NCBI RefSeq assembly: GCF_014230055.1
Contig: NZ_JACHVA010000046.1
Location: 1-64,000, forward strand
Direction of reading: 5' to 3'
DNA length: 64,000 bases
Source of the DNA: Puniceicoccus vermicola
GTDB taxonomy: Bacteria > Verrucomicrobiota > Verrucomicrobiia > Opitutales > Puniceicoccaceae
Shown in pieces: positions 28,924-45,690 of this stretch. The notes beneath the pieces are model-generated. The model had not been told where the DNA came from, did no database searches, and saw nothing but the letters and a program-made list of their open reading frames with translations. How positions within the stretch are numbered: the stretch's first letter is position 1; every line of letters starts with the position of its first letter. Made by a program: the position numbers and the translations under genes.

Positions 28924-30087
28924 ATGAAGCAAAAGAAGAGAAAAGTTTGTGTCGTCGTTACGGCACGTCCGAGTTATTCGCGAATTAAAACAGCAATGGT
29001 GGCTCTTCGGGATCGGGATGATGTGGAATTGCAAGTCGTTGTCGCTGCCTCGGCATTACTGGAGCGATATGGGCGTGCGATTGACGTGATTCGACAGGAC
29101 GGCTTCGAGGTTTCTGCAAGTGTAGTGAATGTGCTGGAAGGCGAGGACCTTCGTAGCATGGCCAAAACGACTGGCTTGGGGATTATCGAAATGGCTTCGG
29201 TCTTGGATTCGCTCAAGCCGGACGTGGTTGTCTCGGTTGCGGATCGATACGAAACGTTGGCGACGGCCGTGGCGACTTCCTACATGAATATTCCGCTTTG
29301 CCACATTCAGGGCGGAGAGGTCACGGGTTCGATCGATGAAAAAGTGAGGCATGCGATTACAAAGCTTTCGGATCTTCATCTCGTCTCGAACGAGAAGGCC
29401 CGTGATCGAGTGATTCATATGGGAGAAGTTCCGGAAAAGGTGCACGTCACTGGTTGTCCTTCTATTGATATTGCTGCGGAGGTTCTGGCGGAACCTCTTC
29501 GTCCGCTTGGATTTCACCGTAAATATGGCGGAGTCGGCAAGGAACAAGATCTTTCCGATGGATATGTGGTCGTTCTTCAACACCCTGTAACGACCGAATA
29601 CGAGGCGGCTCGTAGGCAGGTGATGGAGACTCTGGAGGCCATCTATGAGTTTAATCGGCCGACACTTTGGTTTTGGCCGAATGTGGATGCAGGTTCGGAT
29701 GGGACATCGAAAGGAATCCGTTCCTTTCGGGAGAATCGGGGCGCAGAGAACATTCATTACTACAAGAACATGGAGCCGCGAGATTTCTTGCATTTGCTGA
29801 AAGGATCCATCGGGATCGTAGGAAACTCCAGTGTTGCGATTCGGGAATGTTCGTTCCTCGGTGTAAGAGCGATTGATATTGGAAGCCGACAATCAGGACG
29901 GGACCATGGGGCCAACGTGGTCAATGTGGATTACGATAGGAAACAGATTCTCCAAGCATTGAACGATTGGGAAGTTGGAGAGGCTGTGGAGCCGGACCTG
30001 CTTTATGGGGACGGCAAAGCAGGGGTCCGAATTGCCGATATCCTGGCAACTGCAGAGTTGAGCACGGAGAAGAAGCTGACTTACTGA
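28924..30087 (+). CDS. neuC: UDP-N-acetylglucosamine 2-epimerase, hydrolysing type (NeuC)
   Basis: 387 residues. The start VCVVVTARPSYSRIKTAM, VVSVADRYETLATAVA, CHIQGGEVTGSIDEKVRHA and IGNSS-like GNSSVAIRE are those of NeuC, which releases ManNAc from UDP-GlcNAc. In legionaminic acid pathways the homologue LegG acts on UDP-diNAc-bacillosamine, but no LegB/LegC partners are seen here, so Neu5Ac is the simpler reading. It follows neuB by 33 bases. Confidence 0.92.
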   Translation: MKQKKRKVCVVVTARPSYSRIKTAMVALRDRDDVELQVVVAASALLERYGRAIDVIRQDGFEVSASVVNVLEGEDLRSMAKTTGLGIIEMASVLDSLKPDVVVSVADRYETLATAVATSYMNIPLCHIQGGEVTGSIDEKVRHAITKLSDLHLVSNEKARDRVIHMGEVPEKVHVTGCPSIDIAAEVLAEPLRPLGFHRKYGGVGKEQDLSDGYVVVLQHPVTTEYEAARRQVMETLEAIYEFNRPTLWFWPNVDAGSDGTSKGIRSFRENRGAENIHYYKNMEPRDFLHLLKGSIGIVGNSSVAIRECSFLGVRAIDIGSRQSGRDHGANVVNVDYDRKQILQALNDWEVGEAVEPDLLYGDGKAGVRIADILATAELSTEKKLTY

Positions 30088-30131
30088 GAACCCGAGCCTG
30101 ATTCTTACTTCCTTGATTCTTGAGCCGGAAA

Positions 30132-31085
30132 ATGAACATCCTCATAACCGAGCCGGAGCATTACTCTGAAAAGGCCCTAGGCCTCTACCGTTTCGCGGGA
30201 ACGGTGAAATTGGGGGTGGATCGAGATCGTTCCTTGAAGGATCAAGTCGAGGGTGTGAACGTGTTGGTCATCCGGCTGCGTTTTCGTATCGACCGCGAAG
30301 TCTTAGACGCAGCTACCGATCTTCAGGTGATCGTCACACCAACAACGGGGTTGGATCATCTTGATTTGAAAGAGCTCGATCAGAAGGGCATCCGAATTCT
30401 TTCGCTCAAGGGAGAGACCGAATTTCTTCGATCCATCCCCGCGACCGCAGAATTAACTTGGGGGCTTCTCCTGGCGGTTCGAAGAGGAATTGTTCCGGCG
30501 GCATCTTCCGTGACGAATCGAATTTGGGAGCGGGACCTTTTTCGGGGAAGAGATCTGAAAGGAAAGGTTCTGGGCATTGTTGGATGCGGGCGGATCGGTT
30601 CGATTATGGTCGGATATGCGAAAGCCTTTGGAATGACCGTACTCGTTCACGATTTGCAGACGATTCAGATCGATGGAGTGGATCAGGTCCCGTTGCAGGA
30701 GCTCTATCGAAGATCGGACGTGGTGAGCATTCATCTCCCTTTGGAGGAGGAAACCCGCGGATTCGTGGACCGTGCCGCATTTACGGAAATGAAGGATGGA
30801 GCTGTGTTTCTGAACACAGCACGAAGCGGGATTGTTGATGAAAATGAAATGCTAGAGGCCTTGAAAAGCGGAAAGCTCGCGGGTGTCGGTGTGGATGTCA
30901 TCAGCGGTGAGGACGCCTTCGCTGGAAAGGTTCCTGAGAAGCATCCTTTGCTCGAGTATGCGGACACCGCCGGGAATCTTGTCATCACCCCGCATATCGG
31001 TGGAGCCAGTTGGGATTCAATGCATGCGACTGAAGATTTTTGTGCGGAGCGATTCGTCGACCTGTGCCGCGATGCGGATCTCTAG
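30132..31085 (+). CDS. D-isomer-specific 2-hydroxyacid dehydrogenase
   Basis: 317 residues from ATG 30132 (a TTG at 30120 would add four). NAD-binding motif GKVLGIVGCGRIGSIMVGYA, then the catalytic-site segments AVFLNTARSGIVDE (with the conserved arginine) and TPHIGGASWDS (histidine). Reduces a 2-keto acid to the D-hydroxy acid or the reverse. Such an enzyme among nonulosonic acid and glycan genes might supply a lactate-like or hydroxyacyl decoration; this is inference. The substrate is unknown. Confidence 0.9.
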   Translation: MNILITEPEHYSEKALGLYRFAGTVKLGVDRDRSLKDQVEGVNVLVIRLRFRIDREVLDAATDLQVIVTPTTGLDHLDLKELDQKGIRILSLKGETEFLRSIPATAELTWGLLLAVRRGIVPAASSVTNRIWERDLFRGRDLKGKVLGIVGCGRIGSIMVGYAKAFGMTVLVHDLQTIQIDGVDQVPLQELYRRSDVVSIHLPLEEETRGFVDRAAFTEMKDGAVFLNTARSGIVDENEMLEALKSGKLAGVGVDVISGEDAFAGKVPEKHPLLEYADTAGNLVITPHIGGASWDSMHATEDFCAERFVDLCRDADL

Positions 31086-31109
31086 GTGAATGGGAAAAAC
31101 TGCGTCGGC

Positions 31110-32303
31110 ATGAATAGAGTATTCTTAAGGGTGCGTAAGTGCCTCCGCCCCATTCTTAGACTAGTTCTTCGTGTTCTTGGACGCCGTGGTCCCGTAAGAG
31201 GGGTGTATCAGACCTCTCGTGACTATGCAGAGCGAAGCCGAGAACAACGTGAAAATGGGGTCCGATACGCTCCGATTTTTCCCGAGGAAATCACTGAACG
31301 CCCCTATCCTTTGAGCCTGGCAGGAGATCTACAGGGAGAGTTTTCCAAGCTTCGCCTCCACACAGCCCCCGAGTGCTTTGTCCTAGGAATTCCGAAGGGT
31401 AGAGTTTTGTCAAATCGAGGTACCGTGCTGACCCCGGGACACAAACTCTTGTTTGATGTCTCGAATCAGATGAGTGTGAGAAGGGATTTTGCGAAGGTGC
31501 AATTTCATCAAGCTTTTCAACGCAACATCTTTCCTCCAATTCGCCGGGTTCAGGGGCGTGTAGCGGTGTTGGTTACCGCGGCAGGGGGAAATTACTTCCA
31601 CTGGCTCACGGAGGCGCTACCACGATTGCGATTGTTGGAAATCGCAGAAGGGGGAATTGATCGTATTGACTCTTTTGTCGTGAATCAGGGAGCTTCATTT
31701 ATCGGTGAAAGTCTCGATTTATTGGGGGTTCCACTCAGTCGCCGTATTGATACCGATTGGAACACTCACTTGAAAGCCGATGAGCTCCTTGTGCCTTCGC
31801 TGCCGGGAGTTACTTTAAATCCTCCACGGTGGGCCTGTTCCTTCCTCCAAGAGAGGATGCTCCCTCATGGTGCCCCCTCGGGAAAAGGTCCTCGTATCTA
31901 TATTCGGCGAGGCCAGACGAATCGGAGGTTTGTTCGTAACGAAGAAGAGATTCTCGCGGTTCTGGAGGATTTCGGTTTTGTATCAGTGGATCCGGGGGAG
32001 TTCGATTTGAAGGAGCAAATCGCCATTTTCCGAGACGCGGAAGTCATCGTGGGTTCTCACGGAGCAGCGCTGGCCAATTTGCTTTGGTGCGGGTCCGGAA
32101 CTAAGGTCTTAGAATTGTTGCCACTTCACCGCCCAGGAAAATGGTTTTGGCCCTACTGTTATTGGGCTTTGTCGGCGTCTTGCGATTTGGATTACCATTG
32201 TTTGCAATCGCTAGAGACAGACGGGGACCATGATAAGGAACTGTATGCGGATCAATCGTTCTCCTCTACGGAGATTCGTCAATGGTTGGAGCATCACGTT
32301 TGA
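31110..32303 (+). CDS. GT61-family glycosyltransferase (DUF563)
   Basis: 397 residues from ATG 31110; GTG at 31086, directly after the previous stop, is an alternative. GT61 features: NYFHWLTEALPRL, a strand PRIYIRRGQTNRRFVRNEEE and the conserved VGSHGAALANLLW. This family transfers xylose, GlcNAc or related sugars, usually in the cytoplasm or at the membrane. A short basic N-terminal helix could anchor it. It precedes the nucleotide-sugar dehydrogenase by 44 bases. Confidence 0.9.
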   Translation: MNRVFLRVRKCLRPILRLVLRVLGRRGPVRGVYQTSRDYAERSREQRENGVRYAPIFPEEITERPYPLSLAGDLQGEFSKLRLHTAPECFVLGIPKGRVLSNRGTVLTPGHKLLFDVSNQMSVRRDFAKVQFHQAFQRNIFPPIRRVQGRVAVLVTAAGGNYFHWLTEALPRLRLLEIAEGGIDRIDSFVVNQGASFIGESLDLLGVPLSRRIDTDWNTHLKADELLVPSLPGVTLNPPRWACSFLQERMLPHGAPSGKGPRIYIRRGQTNRRFVRNEEEILAVLEDFGFVSVDPGEFDLKEQIAIFRDAEVIVGSHGAALANLLWCGSGTKVLELLPLHRPGKWFWPYCYWALSASCDLDYHCLQSLETDGDHDKELYADQSFSSTEIRQWLEHHV

Positions 32304-32347
32304 AGATGGAAATCAGGCGGTATGACCGCCAGAATTGAAAGAGTTTC

Positions 32348-33643
32348 ATGAAAATTGCGATTATTGGTTTGGGTTATGTTGGACTTCCACTTGCGATTCG
32401 TTTCGCGTCGTCGGGATCGGAGGTGCTGGGTCTCGACACGGATCCCTCGAAGGTGGAGAGCCTTTCGCGGGGTGATAGTTATATTCGCCACATTCCATCT
32501 ACAGAGGTGGCCTCTCTCGTGGAGAGAGGGGCTTTCGAAGCTTCCACGGATTTTTCCCGCGTAGCTGAGGTCGAAGCAATTTTGATTTGTGTGCCGACTC
32601 CACTCGATGTTCACCGGGAGCCGGATCTTTCCTATGTTCTTCAGTCTGGCGCCGGGATTGCCCCGTATTTGGATTCTGGATTGAAAACTGTGAAGGGCGA
32701 AATAAGGCCGAAGTTAGTGGTTTTGGAATCGACTACTTATCCGGGGACCACGGACACTGAGCTAAGGGAGGTTCTGGAGAAAGGATCCGGCCTGAAAGCT
32801 GGAGTTGGATTTCATCTGGCCTATTCGCCGGAACGGGAAGATCCCGGGCGGACCGATCACTCCGTCCGAACGATTCCGAAGGTGATGGGAGGATACACGG
32901 AAGCTTGCCTCAAGCGTTGCGAGGAACTTTATTCAATGGCCGTGGATCAGATCCATCCGGTATCGTCCTGCCGGATTGCCGAAGCGACCAAGTTGACGGA
33001 GAATATTTTCCGTTCGGTGAACATCGCTCTGATGAATGAGCTGAAAGTCGTCTTCCACGAGATGGGAATCGATGTTTGGGACGTTATTGACGCCGCCTCG
33101 ACAAAACCGTTTGGCTATATGCCGTTCTACCCCGGTCCTGGACTGGGAGGGCACTGTATCCCAATCGATCCCTTCTATCTGACGTGGAAGGCCCGCGAAT
33201 ACGGAAAGCATACTCGGTTCATAGAGCTGGCGGGAGAGGTAAACACCGATATGCCGGACTATGTGATTGGACGTGTGGCAGAAGTCTTGAACGAAGAGGG
33301 TAAAGCGATTCGCGGGTCGAAGATCCTCTTGCTGGGAATCGCCTACAAACCAGATGTGGACGATGATAGGGAGTCTCCTTCGTATGCGCTCATGAGTCGT
33401 TTGGAACGGAGAGGAGCCGCAGTCTCCTACAACGATCCATACGTTCCCGAGATTCGTTCGCTGCGACACTATCCCGAGTTTGCCGGTAGAAAGTCAGTCG
33501 AGATAAGTGCGGAGTACGATCTGATTCTGCTGGCGACGCATCATTCCGAATATAGGGAGTATGATTTCTCCTATTTTGAAGTTCCCATTGTCGATACGAG
33601 AAGTTGTTTGAAGTATCCGGGGCTGCGCTATGTGAAAGCCTAG
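32348..33643 (+). CDS. UDP-GlcNAc/UDP-sugar 6-dehydrogenase, WbpA type
   Basis: 431 residues. N-terminal Rossmann motif IIGLGYVGLPLA, the WbpA-like segment GDSYIRHIPS, ESTTYPGTT, and the catalytic-cysteine motif GPGLGGHCIPIDP; the C-terminal domain carries LGIAYKPDVDDDRESPS. It oxidises the C6 of a UDP-hexose twice to a uronate, most likely UDP-GlcNAcA (by WbpA similarity). With the epimerase at 35582 it can supply a galacto-configured uronate, giving the polymer negative charge. Confidence 0.9.
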   Translation: MKIAIIGLGYVGLPLAIRFASSGSEVLGLDTDPSKVESLSRGDSYIRHIPSTEVASLVERGAFEASTDFSRVAEVEAILICVPTPLDVHREPDLSYVLQSGAGIAPYLDSGLKTVKGEIRPKLVVLESTTYPGTTDTELREVLEKGSGLKAGVGFHLAYSPEREDPGRTDHSVRTIPKVMGGYTEACLKRCEELYSMAVDQIHPVSSCRIAEATKLTENIFRSVNIALMNELKVVFHEMGIDVWDVIDAASTKPFGYMPFYPGPGLGGHCIPIDPFYLTWKAREYGKHTRFIELAGEVNTDMPDYVIGRVAEVLNEEGKAIRGSKILLLGIAYKPDVDDDRESPSYALMSRLERRGAAVSYNDPYVPEIRSLRHYPEFAGRKSVEISAEYDLILLATHHSEYREYDFSYFEVPIVDTRSCLKYPGLRYVKA

Positions 33644-33712
33644 TCATCGCTGGGTTCCGACGGAGTAAGTGAAATAACTTAAAACCATCGTAGAACCGTA
33701 AATTTTTGATCA

Positions 33713-35524
33713 GTGAATTCTACGCATCTTACAGCATTAATAGTGACTCTCGTCTTTTACGGGATTCTTGGCCTAGCTTTTCTCGGGTGGGCGAAGGCGT
33801 TCCTGTTCGCTGCGAGAATTTCCAAGAAAGAATCCGATTCGATACCGCTTTCATTCCTCGTGTGGGCGGGTTGGGCCTGCGTTCTTTTTCTTTTGGGGGT
33901 TATTCATTTCTTTTTACCGATAACTGTGTATGCGATGGTGCCGATTCTACTCGTCGGCATCTGTCTTTCGGTTCTTCTTCTTGATTGGAGAAAAATCGCG
34001 GAGGCAGGTCAGTCTGTGTCTGAGGGAAAGTTATACAAGGTGGTGCTGGCTTTGTTGGTGTTCGGCCTTCTCTTATGGTCTTGTTGGATTGCCTCGCGAG
34101 GCATGATGGCTCCCCGTCAGTTTGACTCCGGCCTTTATCACTTAAACTCGATTCGCTGGTTGAATGAATACCCCCTGATCCCAGGATTGGGAAATCTTCA
34201 CGGGCGTTTAGCTTTTAATTCCAGCTTTTTCACTTTTGTGGCGGCATTAAATATGTACCCGATTTTCGGGTATGGAAGATCTGTCGCCAATGGATTTCTT
34301 CTCATCCTTTCGGTAGTTACTTTCCTGGAGCTTTTACTTCCTCTCCTGAGACGGCCGAGTCAGGTTTTCCATTTGTCCCCGATTCTTTGGGCCATTCCAT
34401 TGTTTTGTCTCCCGGTTCTCGCTTTCTGGAGTCTCTCTTCCTCCGGAATCAGCTCACCTTCGCCGGATCTAACTTCGAATCTCTTGCAGCTGGTGTTGTT
34501 TGTTCTCTTTGCCAGACTGGCCGTCAGGTTTTTCACCACGAGGGAGGTGGTTTCATCCGAGGCTTTGATTTTTTCTCTCCTGGGTGCAACCGCATTAACA
34601 GTGAAACTCAGCAGCGTTGCTTTCTGTGGGATTATGATGGGTCTCCTTTGGGTCGGGATTCTGTGTTCTCGGGGAAAACGACTTCGGCTTGCAGGTTGGT
34701 TTCTATTCGCAGCCTTTCTGGTCCTAGTACTGCAGGCAGGAAGAGGTGTTGTTTTGTCGGGTGCTCCATTGTACCCCTCGACTCTCGGGTATCTTGAACT
34801 TGATTGGTCTGTGCCGCTCGAGAGCATAGAGAACGAGCACCACTGGGTCTCTTCCTGGGCTCGTCAACCGGGTTCCCATTTTAAGGAAGTGCTAGGCTCT
34901 TGGTACTGGTTTGGACCGTGGCTCGACAGAATGAGCTCTGAGTTCACGGAAGTCGTTTTCCCGTTGATCCTTTTTTTGATTGTTGGATCTGCGTCAGTCG
35001 TTTTCTGGAAGATGAGTAGAATAAACGGAAAAGAGCATTGTCTGCGTGTGGGCGTTTTGCTTTTGCCGCTAATCGCGGCATTGGTTTTTTGGTTTTTTAC
35101 CGCTCCAGATCTCCGATTTGCAAATGCGTTCTTCTTTCTCCTTCCCATCTTGGCGATAGCTGGAATCCTTTCGGGGATTCAGTCTACTGGTCGTAGGAAT
35201 GTGATGGTGATGATGACATTGTTCTTTTTTATATTCGGAAATTCCAATCTGATCTATTGGGTTTATCAGAATCGGGACTCTGTCAGAATCATCTCCCGAG
35301 AGGGCTGGCGGCCGACAGAGAAAGTTACATTAGAAGCGAAATTGACGAAAAGTGGATTGTCGGTCTTTGTCCCTGTTTCGGGTCAGCTGACGTGGGATGC
35401 TCCTTTGCCTTCGACTCCTTTTCTCAACGAGAATCTTCGTTTGCGGAAGTCCGATAGCCTTGCTTCAGGATTTACTGTCCAGCCGCCGGACATAGTGGTG
35501 GATTCTAAAAGTAGGCTCCATTGA
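33713..35524 (+). CDS. Multi-pass membrane protein, possibly LIC_10190-like, candidate polymerase or transferase
   Basis: 603 residues from GTG, with about eleven to twelve predicted membrane helices. The loop after the fourth helix, FDSGLYHLNSIRWLNEYP followed by IPGLGNLHGRLAFNSS, resembles the LIC_10190 family of large bacterial membrane proteins, which is found in glycan loci and shares the layout of lipid-linked glycosyltransferases. A periplasmic C-terminal tail of about 80 residues ends it. Role as a Wzy-like polymerase or GT-C enzyme is a guess. Confidence 0.7.
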   Translation: MNSTHLTALIVTLVFYGILGLAFLGWAKAFLFAARISKKESDSIPLSFLVWAGWACVLFLLGVIHFFLPITVYAMVPILLVGICLSVLLLDWRKIAEAGQSVSEGKLYKVVLALLVFGLLLWSCWIASRGMMAPRQFDSGLYHLNSIRWLNEYPLIPGLGNLHGRLAFNSSFFTFVAALNMYPIFGYGRSVANGFLLILSVVTFLELLLPLLRRPSQVFHLSPILWAIPLFCLPVLAFWSLSSSGISSPSPDLTSNLLQLVLFVLFARLAVRFFTTREVVSSEALIFSLLGATALTVKLSSVAFCGIMMGLLWVGILCSRGKRLRLAGWFLFAAFLVLVLQAGRGVVLSGAPLYPSTLGYLELDWSVPLESIENEHHWVSSWARQPGSHFKEVLGSWYWFGPWLDRMSSEFTEVVFPLILFLIVGSASVVFWKMSRINGKEHCLRVGVLLLPLIAALVFWFFTAPDLRFANAFFFLLPILAIAGILSGIQSTGRRNVMVMMTLFFFIFGNSNLIYWVYQNRDSVRIISREGWRPTEKVTLEAKLTKSGLSVFVPVSGQLTWDAPLPSTPFLNENLRLRKSDSLASGFTVQPPDIVVDSKSRLH

Positions 35525-35581
35525 GAATCTTTTTTTTGTCGATCCTTTATAATCGAACGAGAATACCTAGAATCAAGTTAT

Positions 35582-36637
35582 ATGAAATTCTTAATCTCTG
35601 GAGTAGCCGGATTTATTGCGTCGAGGACCGCCCTTTTCCTTCTGGAGCAAGGACACGAGGTTGTCGGCATTGATAATCTGAATGACTATTACGATCAGCG
35701 GCTCAAGTTGCATCGGCTGACTACACTGGGACGGTTTGCCTCGGCTGATCCCGAGAGATTGTCTATTCTCGAGAGATCTGTGAGGGCGGATAAGGAGGTC
35801 GTTCCCCATATCGATATCGATACCCCGCGATTCTCATTTAGAAACCTCGATATCGAAAATAAGAGAGATGTTTTAACGCTGTTCGAAGAACATTCGTTCG
35901 ATGCGGTTCTTAACCTAGCCGCGCGTGCCGGAGTCCGCTACAGCATGGAGAATCCGGACATCTACATGATGACGAATGCGATGGGGACTCTTCACATCTT
36001 GGATGGGATGAAGAATACTGGGGTGAAGAAGATGGTTCTCGCGTCGACCTCGTCCCTCTACGCCGGACAGGAGATGCCGTTTACCGAGGATCTCGCAGTC
36101 AATACTCCGATTTCGCCTTATGCCGCTTCGAAGAAGGCGGCTGAAGCGCTCTGCTATAGCTATCGGCATCTGTACGATTTGGACATTTCCGTATGCCGAT
36201 ACTTCACTGTCTTCGGTCCGATGGGGCGGCCTGATATGTCGCCATTCCGCTTCATTCGTTGGATTGCCGAGGGGGAACCTTTGGTACTATTTGGAGACGG
36301 CAGCCAATCCCGCGACTTTACGCATGTCGATGATATTGCCCGCGGAACCATCGCCGCTCTTCAGCCAGTTGGGTATGAGGTATTCAATCTGGGAGGAGGG
36401 AATAATCCGATTTCGCTCAAGCAATTCATTGCCTGGGTCGAGGAGATGCTCGGGAAAAAGGCGAAAATCGATCGCAAGCCGTTCCACAAGGCCGATGTGA
36501 TGGAAACCTGGGCCGATATTTCCAAAGCCGAACGGATGCTGGGCTGGAAGCCCGAAGAAGGAATTCACGAGGGTGTGCAGCAATGCGTGGATTGGTATTT
36601 GGAGAACCGTGATTGGTTGTCGAAGGTGCGGGTGTAA
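35582..36637 (+). CDS. UDP-glucuronate 4-epimerase-like SDR enzyme
   Basis: 351 residues, extended short-chain dehydrogenase: LISGVAGFIAS at the NAD site, NLAARAGVRYSMENP, STSSLYAG, the catalytic YAASK (with downstream Lys) and RYFTVFGPMGRPDM, the pattern of UDP-uronate 4-epimerases. The nucleotide-binding glycine motif is GxxGxxA, a common variant. Working after the WbpA-like dehydrogenase it would convert a gluco- to a galacto-uronate. It ends eight bases before the first heptamer repeat element. Confidence 0.9.
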   Translation: MKFLISGVAGFIASRTALFLLEQGHEVVGIDNLNDYYDQRLKLHRLTTLGRFASADPERLSILERSVRADKEVVPHIDIDTPRFSFRNLDIENKRDVLTLFEEHSFDAVLNLAARAGVRYSMENPDIYMMTNAMGTLHILDGMKNTGVKKMVLASTSSLYAGQEMPFTEDLAVNTPISPYAASKKAAEALCYSYRHLYDLDISVCRYFTVFGPMGRPDMSPFRFIRWIAEGEPLVLFGDGSQSRDFTHVDDIARGTIAALQPVGYEVFNLGGGNNPISLKQFIAWVEEMLGKKAKIDRKPFHKADVMETWADISKAERMLGWKPEEGIHEGVQQCVDWYLENRDWLSKVRV

Positions 36638-36645
36638 AAGGCGAG

Positions 36646-36744
36646 AGATGGCGAACGTCGAACGCCGAACGTTTAACACTAAACATCGAACGAAGACCAT
36701 TTAGCGTTGGATGTTTAACGTTCGATGTTGAATGTTCGCCATCT
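36646..36744. repeat. Heptamer inverted-repeat element, copy 1
   Basis: An imperfect inverted repeat of 99 bases with AGATGGCGAAC at the left end and its reverse complement (GTTCGCCATCT) at the right. The left arm is six head-to-tail 7-base units of form NAACRYY starting at 36653; the right arm holds the same units in reverse orientation. The centre has a short ATTTAGCG spacer. Immediately upstream of the S23-like gene. Confidence 0.85.
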
Positions 36745-36762
36745 AAATTCGATCAAGATATT

Positions 36763-37170
36763 TTGTGTAAGTATTCAATAGATTCTAGCGAATCCCCAAA
36801 ATGGATTCTCGAAGAAGGTTATGATCTCGAAGAGCGACTTCTCTTGTTTTCTGCGTCGATTATTACACTGACCGATGGAATGCTGAAGAGTCGGGCAGGG
36901 AATCATGTCGCGGCGCAGCTCCTCCGCTCGGGAACCTCTCCGTTTCCCAATCATGGAGAAGCTCAGGCGGCTGAGTCGTTGAAGGACTTCATTCGCAAAT
37001 TGAAAGTATGCTTGAAGGAACTTCGAGAGACTTGGCGCTGGTTACGTTTGCTTGATAAAGTTCCGCTGGCAGAAGATGTGGTCGCCGTGAAAGAGCTTAT
37101 TCGAGAATCCGACGAGTTGATCCGAATCTTTTCAGCAAGTATTAGGACGGCCGAGAAGAGAAAAGGGTGA
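36763..37170 (+). CDS. S23/four-helix-bundle protein inside a repeat pair
   Basis: 135 residues from TTG 36763; the open frame runs further upstream only through the repeat and the epimerase gene. The core (DLEERLLLFSASIITLTDG, then SRAGNHVAAQLLRSGTSPFPN and KLKVCLKELRETWRWLRLL) is the four-helix-bundle family related to 23S rRNA intervening-sequence proteins and to Avd-like proteins. The family's function is unclear, and RNA binding is the usual proposal. It is bracketed by heptamer inverted repeats (36646 and 37171), the second starting at the base after its stop, while neighbours are unrelated glycan genes. This suggests a self-contained cassette. Confidence 0.85.
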   Translation: MCKYSIDSSESPKWILEEGYDLEERLLLFSASIITLTDGMLKSRAGNHVAAQLLRSGTSPFPNHGEAQAAESLKDFIRKLKVCLKELRETWRWLRLLDKVPLAEDVVAVKELIRESDELIRIFSASIRTAEKRKG

Positions 37171-37255
37171 AGATGGCGAACGTTAAACTTTCAACGTCCA
37201 ACATTAAACATTGAACGAGAACTATTTAGCGTTCGAAGTTCAACGTTCGCTATCT
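37171..37255. repeat. Heptamer inverted-repeat element, copy 2
   Basis: 85 bases. Left end AGATGGCGAAC at 37171 begins directly after the S23-like stop codon; six NAACRYY heptamers run from 37178, then a GAACTATTTAGCG-type centre close to that of copy 1, and three reverse-orientation heptamers ending in GCTATCT. Ends seven bases before the next gene's start. Confidence 0.85.
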
Positions 37256-37262
37256 TTAACGT

Positions 37263-38225
37263 ATGACTAAACCTCAAAATAGCTTCCACGCTCCTCAGCT
37301 TCCCGGAGGAAATTCTTTCGACGATCTGCGGGTCGATATTGCCGAGGCGCATCGGATTGCCGATCAGATTTCTTGTGAAAAGCATTCCATTGCGGTTCCG
37401 GCTTGGAAAGGGAAGTTGCGGCTTTTGACCCACCGCATTCTTCGGAAGCTGAACCTGCACGAAGCTCTGGTTGTCAACGGGGTGATGTCCGGTTGGTTGC
37501 GTGATTTTCGGTCCTACTGGAGCGAGGTGCTTGGAGGCCGACCCATTTGGAAGGCTCTGGATTTCTTTTTACTCGCTCATGACTACCGTCGGAGTCAGCA
37601 ACACGCGAAGCCCTTGGAGTGGGATGATGCGGGGCGTCACTTGGAAAATTGGCAGCAGCCCGGTCAAGTGTATCAGATTCTCCAGCAAGTGGAGCGGTTC
37701 GCGCTCAACCCTTACGTCCATCCACCGGTGTGGAAATTTCTGGAGCCCAAAATGAGGGTTTTGGAGTATGGATGCTCGTCCGCGCCGTATTATCACTGCT
37801 ACCGGAAGTTCTTTTCCCATCGGGAGCAGTCATGGGTCTTGGCCGATATCCCCAATTTCCCCTTCCACTATGGAAAGTATCTTTATCGCAGTGACAAAGA
37901 TCTGTCCTTTGCGACCATCGACGTCGAGAACTATGACGACCCGCTGAAGAGCGAAGCGAAGTTTGATGCCATCATTCTGACAACAGTTCTTGAGCACCTT
38001 GAGAATCCGAAAGAGATCGTGGCCTATCTTTTGGACCGCCTCAGGTCCGGCGGAGTCTTTCTCTTTGATTATATTCGGTCAGAAGGAACGGGACTCGATC
38101 ACCCCGGCTCGTTGGAGCAGAGGGAAGAGTGTTTGCGGATCATTCGAGAGCAAACAACCGTCGAGGATGGGCAAATCGGAGATTCTTCGGAGACGGTCGA
38201 TCTCTGCGTCGTTCGGAAAAAGTAG
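37263..38225 (+). CDS. Class I SAM-dependent methyltransferase
   Basis: 320 residues. Residues from about 160 form a methyltransferase core: MRVLEYGCSSAPYYHCY, the acidic strand-2 end WVLADIPNF, DAIILTTVLEHLENPKEI and GGVFLFDYIRSEG. The first 150 residues are helical and not recognised. It starts seven bases after a heptamer repeat. The substrate is probably a glycan sugar, by context. Confidence 0.8.
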   Translation: MTKPQNSFHAPQLPGGNSFDDLRVDIAEAHRIADQISCEKHSIAVPAWKGKLRLLTHRILRKLNLHEALVVNGVMSGWLRDFRSYWSEVLGGRPIWKALDFFLLAHDYRRSQQHAKPLEWDDAGRHLENWQQPGQVYQILQQVERFALNPYVHPPVWKFLEPKMRVLEYGCSSAPYYHCYRKFFSHREQSWVLADIPNFPFHYGKYLYRSDKDLSFATIDVENYDDPLKSEAKFDAIILTTVLEHLENPKEIVAYLLDRLRSGGVFLFDYIRSEGTGLDHPGSLEQREECLRIIREQTTVEDGQIGDSSETVDLCVVRKK

Positions 38226-38285
38226 AGACTTCGGTCCCTTCCCGGTGTCATTCATCGGTCTCAGAATCCATTCTATCGATTTCCA

Positions 38286-39269
38286 ATGCTTAGCCGCCTG
38301 AAAGAACGCCTTCGTCTGGAGGCAAGGGTCTGGTCTGGTCGCAAAGAGGCAAAGTCCTCAAACGCCCGGATTGCTCTCTTTCACGATTTTGCACCGCCTC
38401 CAACCGGGGGAGGGCATCAGTTCCTGCGCGCCTTGATGGCGGAGTGGGAACGCATGGGAATTGAGGTAGCTGTCAATTGCCTGCCGGACTCGGCTGAAGC
38501 CGTGCTGATCAATAGCTTCAACTTTACCTCGGATCTGTTGAGACGGTTGTGGGATCGTGATGTTCGAATGGTGCACCGGGTCGACGGCCCTCTTCAGGTG
38601 TACCGGGGATTTGACGATGGCACCGATTTGGAGATTGCTCGTCTAAATCGTGAGTTCTCTTCGGCCTCGATCTTTCAGTCGGAGTTCAGCCGCAGTGAGA
38701 ACGACCGGCTCGGATTTGGACTGTTGCCGGGCCCTGTCATCTGCAACGCGGCGGATCGGACGATCTTTCAGCCTCGGCAGGGGAAATTTCCTTCTGGTAA
38801 CAAGCCCATCCGGGTGATCGCGGCCAGTTGGTCAGACAATCCCAATAAAGGTCTCGATGTGTTCCAATGGCTGGAGAAGAATTTGGATTCCTCGCGGTTC
38901 CAGTTTACTTTTGTCGGGCGGGCTCAGATGGAATTTGAAAATCTTCGGCACATTCCGGCCGTTCCCAGTGATGAGCTCGCCACACTGTTGAGGGAAAATG
39001 ACATTTTCCTCACGGCGAGCCTGAACGATCCTTGTTCGAATTCGGTAATCGAAGCCCTGACGGTAGGATTGCCCTGCGTCTATCGTCGCAGTGGGGGACA
39101 CCCGGAATTGGTCGGGAAGGCTGGAGCCGGATTTGATTCGCCGGAAGAGATTCCGGATCTTTTGGATGAAGTTGGGCAAAATTGGGCCAAGTATGCGGGC
39201 GAGATTCGGGTTCCCGAAATCACCTCTGTGGCGAAGGAATACTTGCGGGTGTTGGAGGTGACTCCGTAG
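38286..39269 (+). CDS. GT4-family glycosyltransferase
   Basis: 327 residues. N-terminal domain opens with IALFHDFAPPPTGGGHQFLRAL, followed by IFQSEFSRSENDRLGF; the donor domain shows IRVIAASWSDNPNKGLDVF and DPCSNSVIEALTVGLPCVYRRSGGHPE, an E-x7-type GT4 donor site. Shorter than usual for GT4 but complete. Donor unknown. Confidence 0.85.
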   Translation: MLSRLKERLRLEARVWSGRKEAKSSNARIALFHDFAPPPTGGGHQFLRALMAEWERMGIEVAVNCLPDSAEAVLINSFNFTSDLLRRLWDRDVRMVHRVDGPLQVYRGFDDGTDLEIARLNREFSSASIFQSEFSRSENDRLGFGLLPGPVICNAADRTIFQPRQGKFPSGNKPIRVIAASWSDNPNKGLDVFQWLEKNLDSSRFQFTFVGRAQMEFENLRHIPAVPSDELATLLRENDIFLTASLNDPCSNSVIEALTVGLPCVYRRSGGHPELVGKAGAGFDSPEEIPDLLDEVGQNWAKYAGEIRVPEITSVAKEYLRVLEVTP

Positions 39270-39306
39270 CCATGCACTTTTCAGCGGAGAAGAGCGTCAT
39301 TCAATT

Positions 39307-39332
39307 GGAGGGCGGAATGAATTCCGCGCTCC
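39307..39332. repeat. 26-bp REP-like palindrome
   Basis: GGAGGGCGGAAT and its near reverse complement ATTCCGCGCTCC form a 26-base palindrome with one mismatch pair in the stem and a two-base centre. It lies in the 136-base gap between two glycosyltransferase genes and could be a REP-type repeat or transcript hairpin. Confidence 0.65.
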
Positions 39333-39405
39333 GAAAAGAACCGTTCGGCGTGGTTATGTTGTTGGGGCTTGAAATCATAAACACTTCAGTTCTGCCGAGA
39401 ATTAA

Positions 39406-40488
39406 ATGAAGATGATAAAAAAGATGGCGGGCTTGGGACTGCAGATGCGCACTCGCCTGTGGCGTGAGTATTCGCGGCTTGTCTTGGTTCGTGATAACGC
39501 GGGCTGGGCGATTGATGTGGAAATGAAGGCGGTCGGCGAAATCTCCCGCCGGATCGGCTTGAACGTGAAGGAAAAGGACTTCTGGCAACGGTACTCAAAG
39601 CGACAGTCTATTTTTTGGGGAAGCCAGTTCAGTCTATTAAAAGATGACTGGTTGAAGAACGAACATCGGAATGCGACCGCAATGTTTCACGGTTTGCCGG
39701 GAACGGGCCATCCCGAGTTTGATGAGTTGTTTTCCCGAATCGAAAAGCACAAGGACCAATTGCAGCGGGTGCAGGTGACCCACCGGGAGATGGAGGAAGC
39801 ATTGGTCTCGGTCGGGATTCGCAAAGAGATTCTCCATCGCATACCGATCGGGATCGACGGTCGCGTTTTCCAGCCGTTCAGTCACACCGATCGGGAAAGA
39901 ACGCGGGCGACCTTGGGAGTGCCGGGAAATGCCTTTGTGGTTGGCTCTTTTCAGAAGGATGGAAACGGATGGGGCGAAGGGCTCGAACCGAAATTGATCA
40001 AAGGGCCGGATCTCTTCGTGGAAGCCTGCGCTCTTCTCGCCGCGGCTCATCCGAACGTTTTCGTTCTTCTCAGCGGTCCAGCCCGTGGGTACGTAAAGGA
40101 GGGGTTGAAGGAAAAGGGAGTACCCTTCGTTCATCGACAGTTTGAGAATCCAGAAGAAGTCGGGACTCTATATCCCGCGTTGGATGCTTACTTGGTTTCC
40201 TCGCGTCAAGAGGGTGGCCCCAATGCGATCCTCGAATCCATGGCGACCGGGGTGCCCCTAGTTTCGACTCCTGTCGGTCAGGCAACGGACTTGATTCATG
40301 ATGGAGAGAACGCTTTGTTGGTCCCCAAAGAAGACAGCCAGGCGATGGGGGAGGCCCTTTTACAGATCGCTCGGGGAGAGGTGGACCGGGATTCCTTACG
40401 GAGTCACGGATTTGTTACCGCGCAGGAAAATGATTATCGGTCGCAGGATCCTCTCTGGAAGAAGTTTTTTGAGGGATTTGTTGAGTGA
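39406..40488 (+). CDS. GT4-family glycosyltransferase
   Basis: 360 residues from ATG 39406. VTHREMEEALVSVGI and IPIGIDGRVFQPF precede the donor half with FVVGSFQKDGNGW, FVLLSGPARGYVK and RQEGGPNAILESMATGVPLVSTP, where the glutamates of the GT4 donor motif are clear. Probably a later sugar-adding step. The donor is unknown. Confidence 0.9.
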   Translation: MKMIKKMAGLGLQMRTRLWREYSRLVLVRDNAGWAIDVEMKAVGEISRRIGLNVKEKDFWQRYSKRQSIFWGSQFSLLKDDWLKNEHRNATAMFHGLPGTGHPEFDELFSRIEKHKDQLQRVQVTHREMEEALVSVGIRKEILHRIPIGIDGRVFQPFSHTDRERTRATLGVPGNAFVVGSFQKDGNGWGEGLEPKLIKGPDLFVEACALLAAAHPNVFVLLSGPARGYVKEGLKEKGVPFVHRQFENPEEVGTLYPALDAYLVSSRQEGGPNAILESMATGVPLVSTPVGQATDLIHDGENALLVPKEDSQAMGEALLQIARGEVDRDSLRSHGFVTAQENDYRSQDPLWKKFFEGFVE

Positions 40489-40545
40489 GGAATCAGAATG
40501 GTTGCATCCATTCGCCTATGCCGATGGTAGGAGGTTGAGAGGGTC

Positions 40546-41682
40546 ATGAATCATCGTTTTCAGCGATACGTTGTTCGTCCATTTGAGATTCTCCTCAAAT
40601 GCCCGCTCCGTTTCGCCCTCGGTCGCCTATTTCCGTCGAAGTCTCCACGGGTCTTCTACGGCTACGAGCGTATTCCTTCGCGGAATGAGCCCGCATCTGG
40701 CGGTATCGTGAAATTGCAGGATCTTTCGGAGGTCTATCCGAACTGTCGTTGGCGGGCGAATACTCTCTATCTGATCAGTAGTTGCTATCCTTGGACGGTC
40801 CGTTGGCAGGTGAGGGTCGCTCGCTTTTTCGGGGCAAAGATTATTCTGAATCAGAATGGAGTCGCCTATCCCGCTTGGAAGCCGGAGGGATGGGAGATCG
40901 AGAACGAGCGTGCCGCTTGGGTTCACCGACGAGCCGATGCCGTAGTTTACCAAGCAGGGTTTTGCCGTCGTTGCGCTCTCGAATGGTTGAAGGTGGAGGA
41001 GCCGGAATATTCGCGGGTGCTTCTCAACCCGGTGGACGTTCATGCCTTTGGCCCATCTGCAGAAGGTCGTAGTGCCGAAGGGACGTATGATGGATCTGGA
41101 CGGATTCCGTTTCGCATTCTTCTCGCGGGATCTCACCAGTTTGCCTACCGCGTGCGTACGGCTTTGGAAGCGCTCGCGAAGCTCGATGAGGAGTATCGGA
41201 TGATCGTTGCCGGGGCTTACAATTGGGGAGAATCTCAGGAGGATGCGCTGGCCGAGGCTCGGGGTTGGGCTGTAGACCTAGGAGTATCGGATCGAGTCGA
41301 TTTTCAGGGTCGCTACTTGCAAAGTGAGGCGCCCGCTCTGTTTGCGCAGGCAGAGGTTCTTTTGCATACCAAAGTGATGGATCCCTGCCCGCGGCTGGTC
41401 GCCGAAGGGTTGGCCTCCGGGCTGCCGGTTGTCTATGCGGGCAGCGGAGGATTACCGGAGATGGTCTCTTCTGAGGCTGGAGTCGCGGTCGAGTCTGTCG
41501 AAGATTTTGAACGAGAGCGTCCCGCGGACCCGAAACAATTTGCCGAGGCGATTCGAAAGGTTAGAGCGGAATACACCTTGTTCCGCGAAGGTGCTCGGCG
41601 CTGTGCAGAGGAGCGTTTCAACCGGGATGAATGGTTGAAGGCTCATGGCGAATTAATCCGAACCGTTCGTGCCCAATTGTAG
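40546..41682 (+). CDS. GT4-family glycosyltransferase
   Basis: 378 residues. It has ILNQNGVAYPAWKPEGWE, VVYQAGFCRRCALEWL and VLLNPVDVHAFGP, followed by a donor domain with FRILLAGSHQFAYR, YRMIVAGAYNWGES, VDFQGRYLQSE and DPCPRLVAEGLASGLPVVY. The typical GT4 glutamates lie in the last segment. The stop codon TAG is also the start of the left arm of the next repeat (41682). Confidence 0.9.
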   Translation: MNHRFQRYVVRPFEILLKCPLRFALGRLFPSKSPRVFYGYERIPSRNEPASGGIVKLQDLSEVYPNCRWRANTLYLISSCYPWTVRWQVRVARFFGAKIILNQNGVAYPAWKPEGWEIENERAAWVHRRADAVVYQAGFCRRCALEWLKVEEPEYSRVLLNPVDVHAFGPSAEGRSAEGTYDGSGRIPFRILLAGSHQFAYRVRTALEALAKLDEEYRMIVAGAYNWGESQEDALAEARGWAVDLGVSDRVDFQGRYLQSEAPALFAQAEVLLHTKVMDPCPRLVAEGLASGLPVVYAGSGGLPEMVSSEAGVAVESVEDFERERPADPKQFAEAIRKVRAEYTLFREGARRCAEERFNRDEWLKAHGELIRTVRAQL

Positions 41683-41840
41683 GAGGGTTGCTTAAGCGCC
41701 CTCCGCTGCCTCTCCGTTACTCCCATTGGAGCCCAATTATGATTTCGAAAATCATCCTCAGAAAATCTTTGCTTATAGCTGTTCGTTAGAGGTTTGATTC
41801 GTCTTCTCCTCCTAGGTGGGAGCTAAAGCAACCCACCCAC
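41682..41840. repeat. REPIN-like paired inverted repeat, copy A1
   Basis: Left arm at 41682-41704 (core GGGTTGCTTAAGCGCCC) and right arm at 41815-41840, whose reverse complement carries GGGTTGCTTTAGCTCCC. Between the arms is a third hairpin, ATGATTT and AAATCAT at 41739-41755. The right arm ends five bases before the start of the next gene. Same family as 44234-44413. Confidence 0.8.
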
Positions 41841-41845
41841 ATTCA

Positions 41846-42859
41846 ATGACGCCAAGAATTTCCATCCTCCTCCCCGTCTACAACGGGGAGAAGTATCTCC
41901 GGGCTGCGATTGAGAGCATCGTCGCTCAGTCGTATCCGCATTGGGAGCTCCTCGTTTTGGATGATGGCTCGACCGACGGATCGTTGGAAATCGCTCGATC
42001 CTTCACGGATGAGCGTGTCCGGGCTCTGCCCAACGACGAGAATCTGGGTGTGGCCAAAACTTTGAACCGTGCCATAGACAAAGCCCGAGGGGAGCTAATC
42101 GCTCGAATGGACGCGGATGATGGAGCGTTGCCGGAGCGGTTGGCTAAACAGGTAGAGTTTTTGGAAAAGAACCCGAATGTTGATTTGCTTGGCACGAATG
42201 CCATTTCAGCGGAAACCGGCGAGTCTACCTTTGCCGTTCCCACCGAGCACGAAGACATTCGATGCAACCTCCTCTTTAACTGTAGTTTTCTTCATCCGAC
42301 AGTCATGTGGAGGGCAGAGGCCTTTCGCGAAAAGGGATTGGTCTATGAAGAGACTCCCACCGCGGAAGATTATGATCTCTGGGAGAGGGCTTGTTCCCAG
42401 ATCCGCTCTGCGAATCTTTCCGAGCCTCTCCTGCGGTATCGTAATGATCCCGAGGTCAAGGTCACGGCCTACGTGCGGCAGCAAAAAGAAGGAGGTCGTC
42501 GTATTCGCGAACGAGCCCTTCGTCGGTTGGGCATGAAGCCTTCTCGCGAAGAGATGGAGGTTCACCACGCGGTGAGCTATGACAATCTGCCGCAGCCTGC
42601 GGTGGAGTTGTCTCGAGTGGATGAGTGGATGGGGGAGATTCTGCGGGCGAATCGTTCATCGGGGGTCTTGGACGAATCGGCACTGCGGACCCGTTTGCAT
42701 CTCCAAAGGTATTATCACTTGGGCCGCAATCGTCCGGCGACGACCGTGCGCCGACTCTTGTGGGCCGGAAACGGGCTTGCTCGGGTTCCGACCGGGTTGG
42801 CCATTCGATCTCTGACGAAATTGGTTTGTTGCCGTAGCAACCCTTCGCGAGAGGGATGA
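41846..42859 (+). CDS. GT2-family glycosyltransferase
   Basis: 337 residues from ATG 41846 (MTPRISILLPVYNGEKYL); upstream codons lie inside the repeat arm. GT-A motifs LDDGSTDGSL, NLGVAKTLNRAIDKARGE, ARMDADDGALPERL (metal-binding DADD) and HPTVMWRAEAF. Similar to rhamnosyl- and other capsule GT2 enzymes; the donor is unknown. It is flanked by a repeat on both sides. Confidence 0.9.
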   Translation: MTPRISILLPVYNGEKYLRAAIESIVAQSYPHWELLVLDDGSTDGSLEIARSFTDERVRALPNDENLGVAKTLNRAIDKARGELIARMDADDGALPERLAKQVEFLEKNPNVDLLGTNAISAETGESTFAVPTEHEDIRCNLLFNCSFLHPTVMWRAEAFREKGLVYEETPTAEDYDLWERACSQIRSANLSEPLLRYRNDPEVKVTAYVRQQKEGGRRIRERALRRLGMKPSREEMEVHHAVSYDNLPQPAVELSRVDEWMGEILRANRSSGVLDESALRTRLHLQRYYHLGRNRPATTVRRLLWAGNGLARVPTGLAIRSLTKLVCCRSNPSREG

Positions 42860-42877
42860 GCATTGAGATGAAAACGC

Positions 42878-42976
42878 AGATCGCGAACGTTAAACGCTCA
42901 ACTTTAAACACTAAACGTTAAACGGGTTCATTCGATGTTGGACGTTGAAAGTTTGACGTTCGATGTTCGCCATCTT
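42878..42976. repeat. Heptamer inverted-repeat element, copy 3 (no S23 gene)
   Basis: 99 bases: AGATCGCGAAC at the left, GTTCGCCATCT at the right. Six consecutive NAACRYY units start at 42885, then an unpaired centre near 42927, then five to six units in reverse orientation. Same architecture as copies 1 and 2 but with no gene inside or beside it that belongs to the S23 family. It fills the gap between two glycosyltransferase genes. Confidence 0.85.
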
Positions 42977-42986
42977 TGCATTCCCC

Positions 42987-44210
42987 ATGAAAGTTCTTCA
43001 CCTCAGCACCTTTGATCGAATCAATGGCGCCTCGATTGCGGCCTACCGCTTACATCGGTCCTTGATCGAGAGCGGCGTCAATTCGGCGATGTGGGTGCAG
43101 AACAAAGTGACCTCGGATCCGACTGTCTTCGGTCCAAGGAAAGGCGCTGGAAAATACTGGTCACTAGCGCGACCGTGGCTGGATCGCATGGCACTGCTTC
43201 CGGCGAAAGCCTTTCGGGATTCGTATTCATCACCTTCATGGCTTCCGCGATGGGACCTCGGCCCAATGAAAGAGTGGAAGCCGGATGTAATTCATTTGCA
43301 TTGGGTGCAGGGAGGTTTTGTGCCGATTGGACTATTGCCAAAGTTGGCCACCCATATGGGGCGGTCGATTCCGGTTTGCTGGACCTTTCATGACGAATGG
43401 GCGTTCTCCGGTCTGCGGCATTACCCGCCGTTTCCGAGAGAAGAGAATTTATCCAGCCTTTATCAGCGTTGGGAAGAAAAGATCCGGGCCCGGAAAACGA
43501 AAAGCTATGAGGGGCTAAACCTGACGGCGGTGGCCCCAAGCCGTTGGATGGCCGAAAGAGCCCAAGCGAGTTCTGTTTGGTCCGGACATCAAACGGAGGT
43601 TTTACCGAATCCAATCGATACGTCGGTTTTTCATCCCGTGGACCGACAAGTGGCCCGGAGGTTGCTCAAGCTTCCGCAGGATCAGCGGTTGGTTCTCTTT
43701 GGTTCCGAAGCCGGTGCCGGCGATCCTCGTAAAGGGTTCGACCTGTTGCGACAAGCCTGCCGAACCTTGGCGGATTCCGGCAATCGGTTTGGGTTGGTTT
43801 GTTTCGGGAATGGTTCGCCTGGCGATCTCGGGGATATTCCCTGTCACTCGCTCGGATGGTTGCACGACGATGCTTCCCTCGCGCTTGCCTATTCCGCTGC
43901 CGATATTGTCGTTCTGCCTTCGCGACAGGATAATCTGCCCAATACCGGAGTCGAGGCATTGGCGTGTGGTCGTCCGGTCGTCACCTTCGCCATTGGGGGA
44001 ATTCCTGATATCGTGGATGATGGCGAGAGCGGGTTTCTTTGCCCAGAGGAAGACGCTGTGGCGTTGGAGGGCGCAATTCGGAAGCTTCTGGAGGACTACG
44101 ATTTGCGGATCCGGATGGGGAAGACGGCCCGGGAAAGTGCGGAAAGGCGGTTTTCAACGGAGGTGGTTGTGCCGAGTTTCATTGAGCTGTACAAAGGTTT
44201 GATTGGGTGA
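42987..44210 (+). CDS. GT4-family glycosyltransferase
   Basis: 407 residues from ATG 42987 (MKVLHLSTFDRINGASIAAY); the open frame starts inside the repeat but that part is not homologous. VIHLHWVQGGFV, CWTFHDEWAFSGLRHY and VLPNPIDTSVFHP in the N-terminal half; donor region VLPSRQDNLPNTGVEALACGRPVV, with the conserved glutamate. Layout matches the WcaC/WbaC-like GT4 group and resembles the enzyme at 16432. Confidence 0.9.
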   Translation: MKVLHLSTFDRINGASIAAYRLHRSLIESGVNSAMWVQNKVTSDPTVFGPRKGAGKYWSLARPWLDRMALLPAKAFRDSYSSPSWLPRWDLGPMKEWKPDVIHLHWVQGGFVPIGLLPKLATHMGRSIPVCWTFHDEWAFSGLRHYPPFPREENLSSLYQRWEEKIRARKTKSYEGLNLTAVAPSRWMAERAQASSVWSGHQTEVLPNPIDTSVFHPVDRQVARRLLKLPQDQRLVLFGSEAGAGDPRKGFDLLRQACRTLADSGNRFGLVCFGNGSPGDLGDIPCHSLGWLHDDASLALAYSAADIVVLPSRQDNLPNTGVEALACGRPVVTFAIGGIPDIVDDGESGFLCPEEDAVALEGAIRKLLEDYDLRIRMGKTARESAERRFSTEVVVPSFIELYKGLIG

Positions 44211-44233
44211 GAATGAGGAAATCTTTTACCGTA

Positions 44234-44413
44234 GGAGGGTTGCTTTAGCGCCCTCCACTGCTCTCGGCTCGTCTGGCTCCCTCCGCTGCCTCTCTGCAAG
44301 AGTCAAAGCGGTGGAGGCATTCCCCGCTTTGTTTATCGCTGTTCGGCATCCACCTATGCGGAAACGAAATAATTGGGCAGTCGCTCAGGTGGGCGCTGAA
44401 GCAACCCACCCAC
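44234..44413. repeat. REPIN-like paired inverted repeat, copy A2
   Basis: Left arm 44234-44256 (GGGTTGCTTTAGCGCCC core) and right arm 44388-44413 (reverse complement GGGTTGCTTCAGCGCCC). The middle contains a GC-rich hairpin CAAAGCGG/CCGCTTTG (44304-44331, 12-base loop) followed by T-rich sequence. Arms match those of copy A1, 2.5 kb away. Confidence 0.8.
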
Positions 44414-44432
44414 AGTGAACAGATCAGATTCC

Positions 44433-45683: not shown

Positions 45684-45690
45684 GGTGAAA

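Follow-up and report, generated by a model that had tools for sequence, protein, structure and literature searches.

Does the S23-type gene at this locus, together with the two inverted repeats that enclose it, form a mobile cassette, and what kind of element would such a unit be? We analyzed the gene and its repeats in the window, i.e. the whole 64-kb stretch of DNA introduced above, in the other sequenced members of the genus and in a wide range of bacteria.

The S23 gene and its repeats

The three repeat copies were located at positions 36646-36744, 37171-37255 and 42878-42975 of the window; as palindromes they are not assigned to a strand. The S23 / 23S rRNA-intervening-sequence-type four-helix-bundle gene (36763..37170, + strand) sits exactly between the first two, as the original prediction had stated. 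Its stop codon TGA occupies 37168-37170 and the right palindrome begins at 37171, the base directly 3' of it. The third copy, also predicted, is a solo palindrome, which has the same dialect as the flanking pair and no gene. The claim that the unit contains no transposase holds as well, since the S23 gene is the only gene between the repeats. The open frame starts at 36613 and passes through the left repeat; the translation start is probably the TTG at 36763. The cassette lies between an upstream gene for an NAD-dependent epimerase (35582..36637, + strand) and a downstream methyltransferase gene (37263..38225, + strand), both of which are co-directional with it and conserved as neighbors in both congeners. 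A gene for a membrane-protein-like product of 603 aa (33713-35524), which is found between the UDP-glucose dehydrogenase and epimerase genes of the window, is absent from this place in both congeners.

The repeats are palindromes of degenerate heptamers of the NAACGTT type with a 7-base period. The heptad register, read directly from the sequence, runs AGATGGC GAACGTC GAACGCC GAACGTT TAACACT AAACATC GAACG... and then returns as the mirror image; the caps are AGATGGC and GCCATCT. This 7-base design was absent from the original prediction. The same architecture, in other dialects, occurs around most S23 genes of the window genome and of other genomes. Palindromes of the window dialect are 83-110 nt long, built of heptamers and capped by AGATGGC. 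Both the left and the right copy fold into hairpins far better than shuffled sequences (z = -7.2 and -4.2, respectively); the hairpin of the solo copy at 42878-42975 is not better than its shuffles (z = -0.6). No Rfam match was found in the region 30000-46000 of the window. Separate from the heptamer repeats, the window contains G/C-rich palindromes led by GTAG (GTAGGAGGGTTGCTTAAGCGCCCTCC) at 41679-41709 and 44231-44261, and at 41814-41846 and 44387-44419. These are probably ordinary REP sequences.

The S23 protein

The protein encoded in the window matches the profile PF05635 with 34-35 bits (34.2 against a cut-off of 33.8) and TIGR02436 with 67.8 bits, well above the cut-off of 24. An AlphaFold2 model with a pLDDT of 89 was compared with known structures using Foldseek. 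It agrees with the crystal structures of S23 proteins (2rld and 2gsc) and, to a lesser degree, with the protein Avd of diversity-generating retroelements (DGRs; 4dwl) and a DGR ribonucleoprotein (8ub7). The structures 2gsc and 2rld are those of XCC0516 from Xanthomonas and of BT_0352, respectively. The window protein has no match to DivGenRetAVD, the NCBIfam model of Avd; the scores that other S23 proteins reach with this model, 32-37 bits, are below its cut-off of 80. The dN/dS values of S23 proteins in Flavobacterium (0.03-0.16) demonstrate that these proteins are under purifying selection. To our knowledge, S23 proteins occur in many phyla, are usually annotated just as 'four helix bundle protein' and have no known function; we also know of no recognised catalytic site in the S23 four-helix bundle.

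Mirror-image arrays flank S23 genes in many phyla

The analysis was extended to 132 S23 loci from about 20 phyla. These comprise 52 loci from the window genome and its relatives and another 80 that come from named genomes in many phyla, the latter collected by a contig scan with a narrow S23 alignment. In the self-similarity of the sequence near S23 genes the lags 7 and 8 stand out within ~300 bases. Both flanks are periodic at one lag in 100 of the 132 loci, compared to 7 of 116 distal control stretches (Fisher p ~1e-31). The shared lag is 7 in 67 of the 100 loci, 8 in 24, and 6 or 9 in a few. An independent sample of 369 gammaproteobacterial genomes, which was searched with the S23 domain of 2gsc, gave the same picture: both flanks are periodic in 21 of 26 S23 loci, but only in 1 of 20 controls. 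The architecture is a general one. No close Xanthomonas match to XCC0516 was found among the 369 genomes, and a search in phages gave no match.

When the left flank is compared with the reverse complement of the right flank, the median score is 20, versus 10 for flanks taken from mismatched loci. The two flanks of an S23 locus are reverse complements of each other, in a dialect specific to the locus. These data demonstrate the architecture and its wide occurrence.

Arrays with a lag of 7 or 8 are present in 66% of the intergenic regions adjacent to S23 and in 27% of the other intergenic regions of the same loci, while other lags are equally frequent (7% versus 8%). The latter 27% means that arrays without the gene are common too. 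Heptameric repeats without S23 have also been described in the literature. They include GGGAATC in Xanthomonas, with many inverted pairs, and GGGGA(C/T)T in Nostoc, both generally not associated with mobile elements (PMC4692102), and TAACTGA in Beggiatoaceae and Cyanobacteria (PMC4679880). A term search found no mention of S23 in the main texts of these two papers. Common arrays of this kind would be expected if simple intergenic repeats grow by strand slippage, unrelated to the S23 gene. However, the arrays are strongly concentrated at S23 genes, their two arms are matching mirror images, and their period and dialect are linked to the S23 clade; slippage is in our view a most improbable explanation.

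Period and dialect follow the protein

The period of the arrays changes 10 times on the S23 tree, as compared to 21.3 times in shuffles (minimum of 2000 shuffles: 15). The clade with octamers (AAAGGCAC/AAAGTTAC) unites Nitrospirota, Balneolota and Bacteroidota with relatives of the window genome. The dialect AGTGGTT is common to Thiohalocapsa, Ruminococcus and a congener of the window genome, and AGGATTC is used in Acidobacteriota, a betaproteobacterium and Chitinophaga; GGGAATA/GGGAACA is found in Cyanobacteriota. A GC-corrected Mantel test of dialect versus S23 distance gave p = 0.0005 for period 7; p was 0.04-0.065 for period 8 alone and 0.0003 in the independent gammaproteobacterial set. 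Comparisons between phyla took the relatives of the window genome as Verrucomicrobiota by assumption. With the named loci alone, excluding these relatives, the Mantel result is borderline (p = 0.05 between phyla and 0.145 overall). In the same named loci the nearest S23 from another phylum has the more similar dialect in 33 of 42 cases, in pairs that are not independent. The link is not strict, because at one site in Flavobacterium two dialects are found with orthologous S23 genes. Together these results demonstrate an agreement of period and sequence with the S23 clade, which is of modest strength: the period, and more weakly the dialect, track the phylogeny of the S23 proteins even across phyla, and the link is real but loose.

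The locus in the genus and its solo palindromes

The window cassette has all of these traits, namely 7-/8-base arms, a mirror-image arrangement and a link to the S23 clade, and its nearest relative shares locus and dialect. This closest S23 relative (L091), from the congener G001, is found with its arrays at the same epimerase-methyltransferase junction. At this junction the congener G002 has two palindromes around a spacer of ~56 nt, and the S23 gene is lost. The spacer aligns with the 3' end of S23 with a score of 42.5 (shuffle mean 25, maximum 43), which is suggestive of an S23 remnant. No empty site was found at the window locus in either sequenced congener. Since the junction is occupied in both of them, the window copy was inherited within the genus and is no newcomer; the gene was already present in the genus ancestor and was lost in G002. 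A recent jump of the window copy was rejected on the same occupancy.

A genome-wide count with a covariance model yielded ~5 palindromes of the window dialect in the window genome (G000), ~24 in G001 and ~13 in G002, and none in the sister genus. Most of these palindromes are solo copies: the ~24 palindromes of G001 compare with one cognate S23 gene. The solo copy at 42878 has a shortened relic at the same junction in G001 and is absent in G002. A solo palindrome upstream of the epimerase gene of G001 is likewise absent in G002, and another one of G001 is missing in the window genome, where the convergent gene pair around the site is conserved.

Some further observations were made around these palindromes. 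Many solo palindromes of G001 (L203, L205, L207, L209, L211) lie directly 3' of stop codons and several of them between convergent genes, a placement that is terminator- or REP-like. In the window genome a repeated transposase-like element abuts heptamer arms of the window dialect at several sites (contigs C51, C52, C140, the end of C136 and the start of C138; loci L046, L045, L041, L044, L053). The element reads like IS3, as if it targeted the palindromes, and several contigs end inside it. A RAYT-like gene (2933-3303 of L091) is located 3' of the methyltransferase gene in G001, which is not so in the window.

Evidence for mobility of S23 cassettes in other genomes

The genome G010, which belongs to the same order as the window genome, contains two cassettes that are 92.7% identical over 453 nt; their surroundings are unrelated. 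Further copies of this cassette are internally deleted. A second family in G010 has 98-99% identity with homology stopping inside the arrays; the contigs are broken in the shared part. In Flavobacterium, queries with flanks only showed that a given site can be filled in one species and empty in a close relative. One S23 cassette is common to three species at sdhA-sdhB, and a different S23 is found in a fourth. Of further species, two carry a palindrome of another dialect that lacks the gene, and in two more the site is almost bare. At mraY-murD the empty site reads AGATAG|TATGAG, and in the filled site the mraY stop and the murD start are separated by the whole cassette. The names of these two sites are our reading of the flanking sequence. 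These loci demonstrate that one genome can have near-identical cassettes at unrelated sites, that orthologous sites can be empty or filled, and that derivatives without the gene exist.

We found no clean target-site duplication; even the clean empty/filled pair at mraY-murD gave no unambiguous one. Some of the empty sites keep remnants of arrays. In Flavobacterium G057 (L278) a site with an S23 cassette in other species is taken up by an inverted repeat (TGTCATTTCGACGAAGGAGAAATC) that is unrelated. Pairs of S23 genes on plasmids were uninformative on mobility, with two Calothrix plasmids sharing a larger region and two Nostoc plasmids having the same neighbors. Cassettes are both gained and lost, and mobility of S23 cassettes outside the genus of the window is well supported. 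The original prediction of a mobile cassette is supported for such units of gene and repeats in other genomes, and empty next to filled sites do exist in Flavobacterium. It is not supported for the window copy, whose locus holds S23 with arrays in G001 and two palindromes in G002.

Transcript structure and candidate enzymes

The cassettes are co-directional with their upstream neighbor in 102 cases versus 16. The transcript of the window locus folds as a long stem with the S23 gene in the loop (z = -5.6), and that of another locus (L162) forms a long stem around the gene with z = -8.1. This placement and folding, the conservation of the locus in the window's genus and the excision of rRNA intervening sequences by RNase III (PMC4990558) would fit an RNA-processing spacer without active mobility. 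S23 and stem would then be a device of operon transcripts, like the rRNA intervening sequences, which RNase III cleaves and which is passed on vertically with occasional loss. Such a spacer does not account for the near-identical cassettes at unrelated sites in G010, for related Flavobacterium having different S23 elements at one intergenic site or for the dispersed gene-less copies, and we consider it unlikely.

A second possibility is that S23, like its relative Avd, presents the element RNA to a cellular reverse transcriptase acting in trans. This would be consistent with the fold match to Avd (4dwl) and the DGR ribonucleoprotein (8ub7), with the DivGenRetAVD matches of other S23 proteins below the cut-off, and with the sense orientation bias of the cassettes. 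However, no RVT_1 match was found in G010, the genome with the near-identical cassettes, nor in the cassette carriers G091, G084 and G096; G010 is 96% complete, so a reverse transcriptase could be absent from the assembly or be of a divergent type. The RVT_1 matches of the window genome lie on other contigs, away from the cassette. The idea of a required reverse transcriptase is weakened by these four genomes, and retromobility of this kind seems quite improbable.

The palindromes could also be REP-like sequences for whose movement a Y1 (RAYT) transposase acts in trans; S23 would then be carried along as a passenger. RAYT-type Y1_Tnp matches are numerous in the window's genus, with 50 in the window genome, an unusually large set, 15 in G001 and 13 in G002; some window-dialect palindromes lie near such genes in G002 and G001. 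But these counts run opposite to those of the palindromes (50 with 5 in the window genome, 15 with ~24 in G001), and Flavobacterium G046, which has a cassette, yields no Y1_Tnp match. Furthermore, the window separately holds GTAG-led palindromes that resemble ordinary REPs, and the repeat period follows the S23 tree. We therefore regard movement by RAYT in trans as highly improbable, although RAYT proteins may have helped within the window's genus, where some palindromes are close to their genes. A plain RAYT/REP pair was rejected by structure and by G046. The analogy with RAYT and REP drawn in the original prediction remains valid in its logic, i.e. solo copies without the gene and a repeat linked to a protein; it breaks down on the missing Y1 transposase, the other design of the palindromes and the G046 cassette. 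A Y1 transposase is not shared by all carriers, nor is an RVT_1 reverse transcriptase.

Discussion

In Coxiella burnetii the rRNA intervening sequence has a terminal stem and an S23 ORF, which is preceded by three heptamers in tandem (PMC4990558). Mobility has been proposed earlier for rRNA intervening sequences with S23. The heptamers make the comparison with rRNA in the original prediction an apt one. Like these sequences, the window cassette has an S23 ORF within terminal inverted repeats that pair as a stem, and in Coxiella the likeness extends to heptameric direct repeats before the ORF. In contrast to them, the window unit lies outside 23S rRNA, between epimerase and methyltransferase genes, and S23 cassettes occur between protein-coding genes, in many dialects, in several copies and with dispersed solo palindromes. 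With RAYT/REP the S23 unit shares a protein gene flanked by palindromes and many gene-less copies throughout the genome. It differs in that it has no gene for a Y1 HUH transposase, S23 being a four-helix bundle, and in that its palindromes are long and built of heptamers instead of short and led by GTAG or GGAG. The fold is common to S23 and Avd, but the S23 cassette shows neither a reverse transcriptase nor a template or variable repeat. Tandem arrays of 7 bases between genes also characterize the heptameric repeat families of Xanthomonas, Nostoc and Beggiatoaceae. MITEs are similarly small, with inverted ends and without a transposase, whereas S23 cassettes carry a gene of their own, under purifying selection where tested, and have tandem arrays as arms. 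A link of S23 genes to such arrays was not found in the open-access literature, most subscription papers being outside this scope. The cassette with S23 and arrays is a variant of something known, with a fair chance of being more than that.

On balance we believe that the S23 cassette belongs to a class of miniature mobile elements that is widespread and has mirror-image 7-/8-base arrays. Such elements would work as follows. The S23 protein, with its Avd-like fold, would bind the arrays of its own element, either as single-stranded DNA or as folded RNA. An element between co-directional genes would rely on the transcript of the host for its expression; there the paired arrays would form a stem, and the gene would lie in the loop. 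To spread the element, replication and repair enzymes of the host would anneal arrays or switch templates between them with the help of S23, and solo palindromes would be both by-products and landing sites of this spread. The element in the window would be an old one, which was present in the genus ancestor and has shed solo palindromes. Binding of the arrays by S23 and its promotion of annealing or template switching would explain why boundaries fall inside arrays, why the arms match and why solo palindromes exist. Weighing against this interpretation are the lack of a clean target-site duplication and of an empty site at the window locus, the preponderance of solo palindromes over cognate S23 genes, the arrays in 27% of the other intergenic regions and the modest, non-strict link between dialect and S23.

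A wider proposal, to which we give slightly less than an even chance, is that S23 proteins are the specificity factors of bacteria-wide transposase-free elements. Each S23 clade would recognise, spread and keep matched its own 7-/8-base array. These elements would be a main source of the unexplained 7-/8-base tandem repeats and palindromes, and the rRNA intervening sequences would be one special case of them.

The arrays give S23 proteins a substrate to test, and they connect the rRNA intervening sequences with a much larger class. They also offer a possible origin for the heptameric repeats of bacterial genomes and suggest that elements can move in the absence of a recognised transposase or reverse transcriptase.
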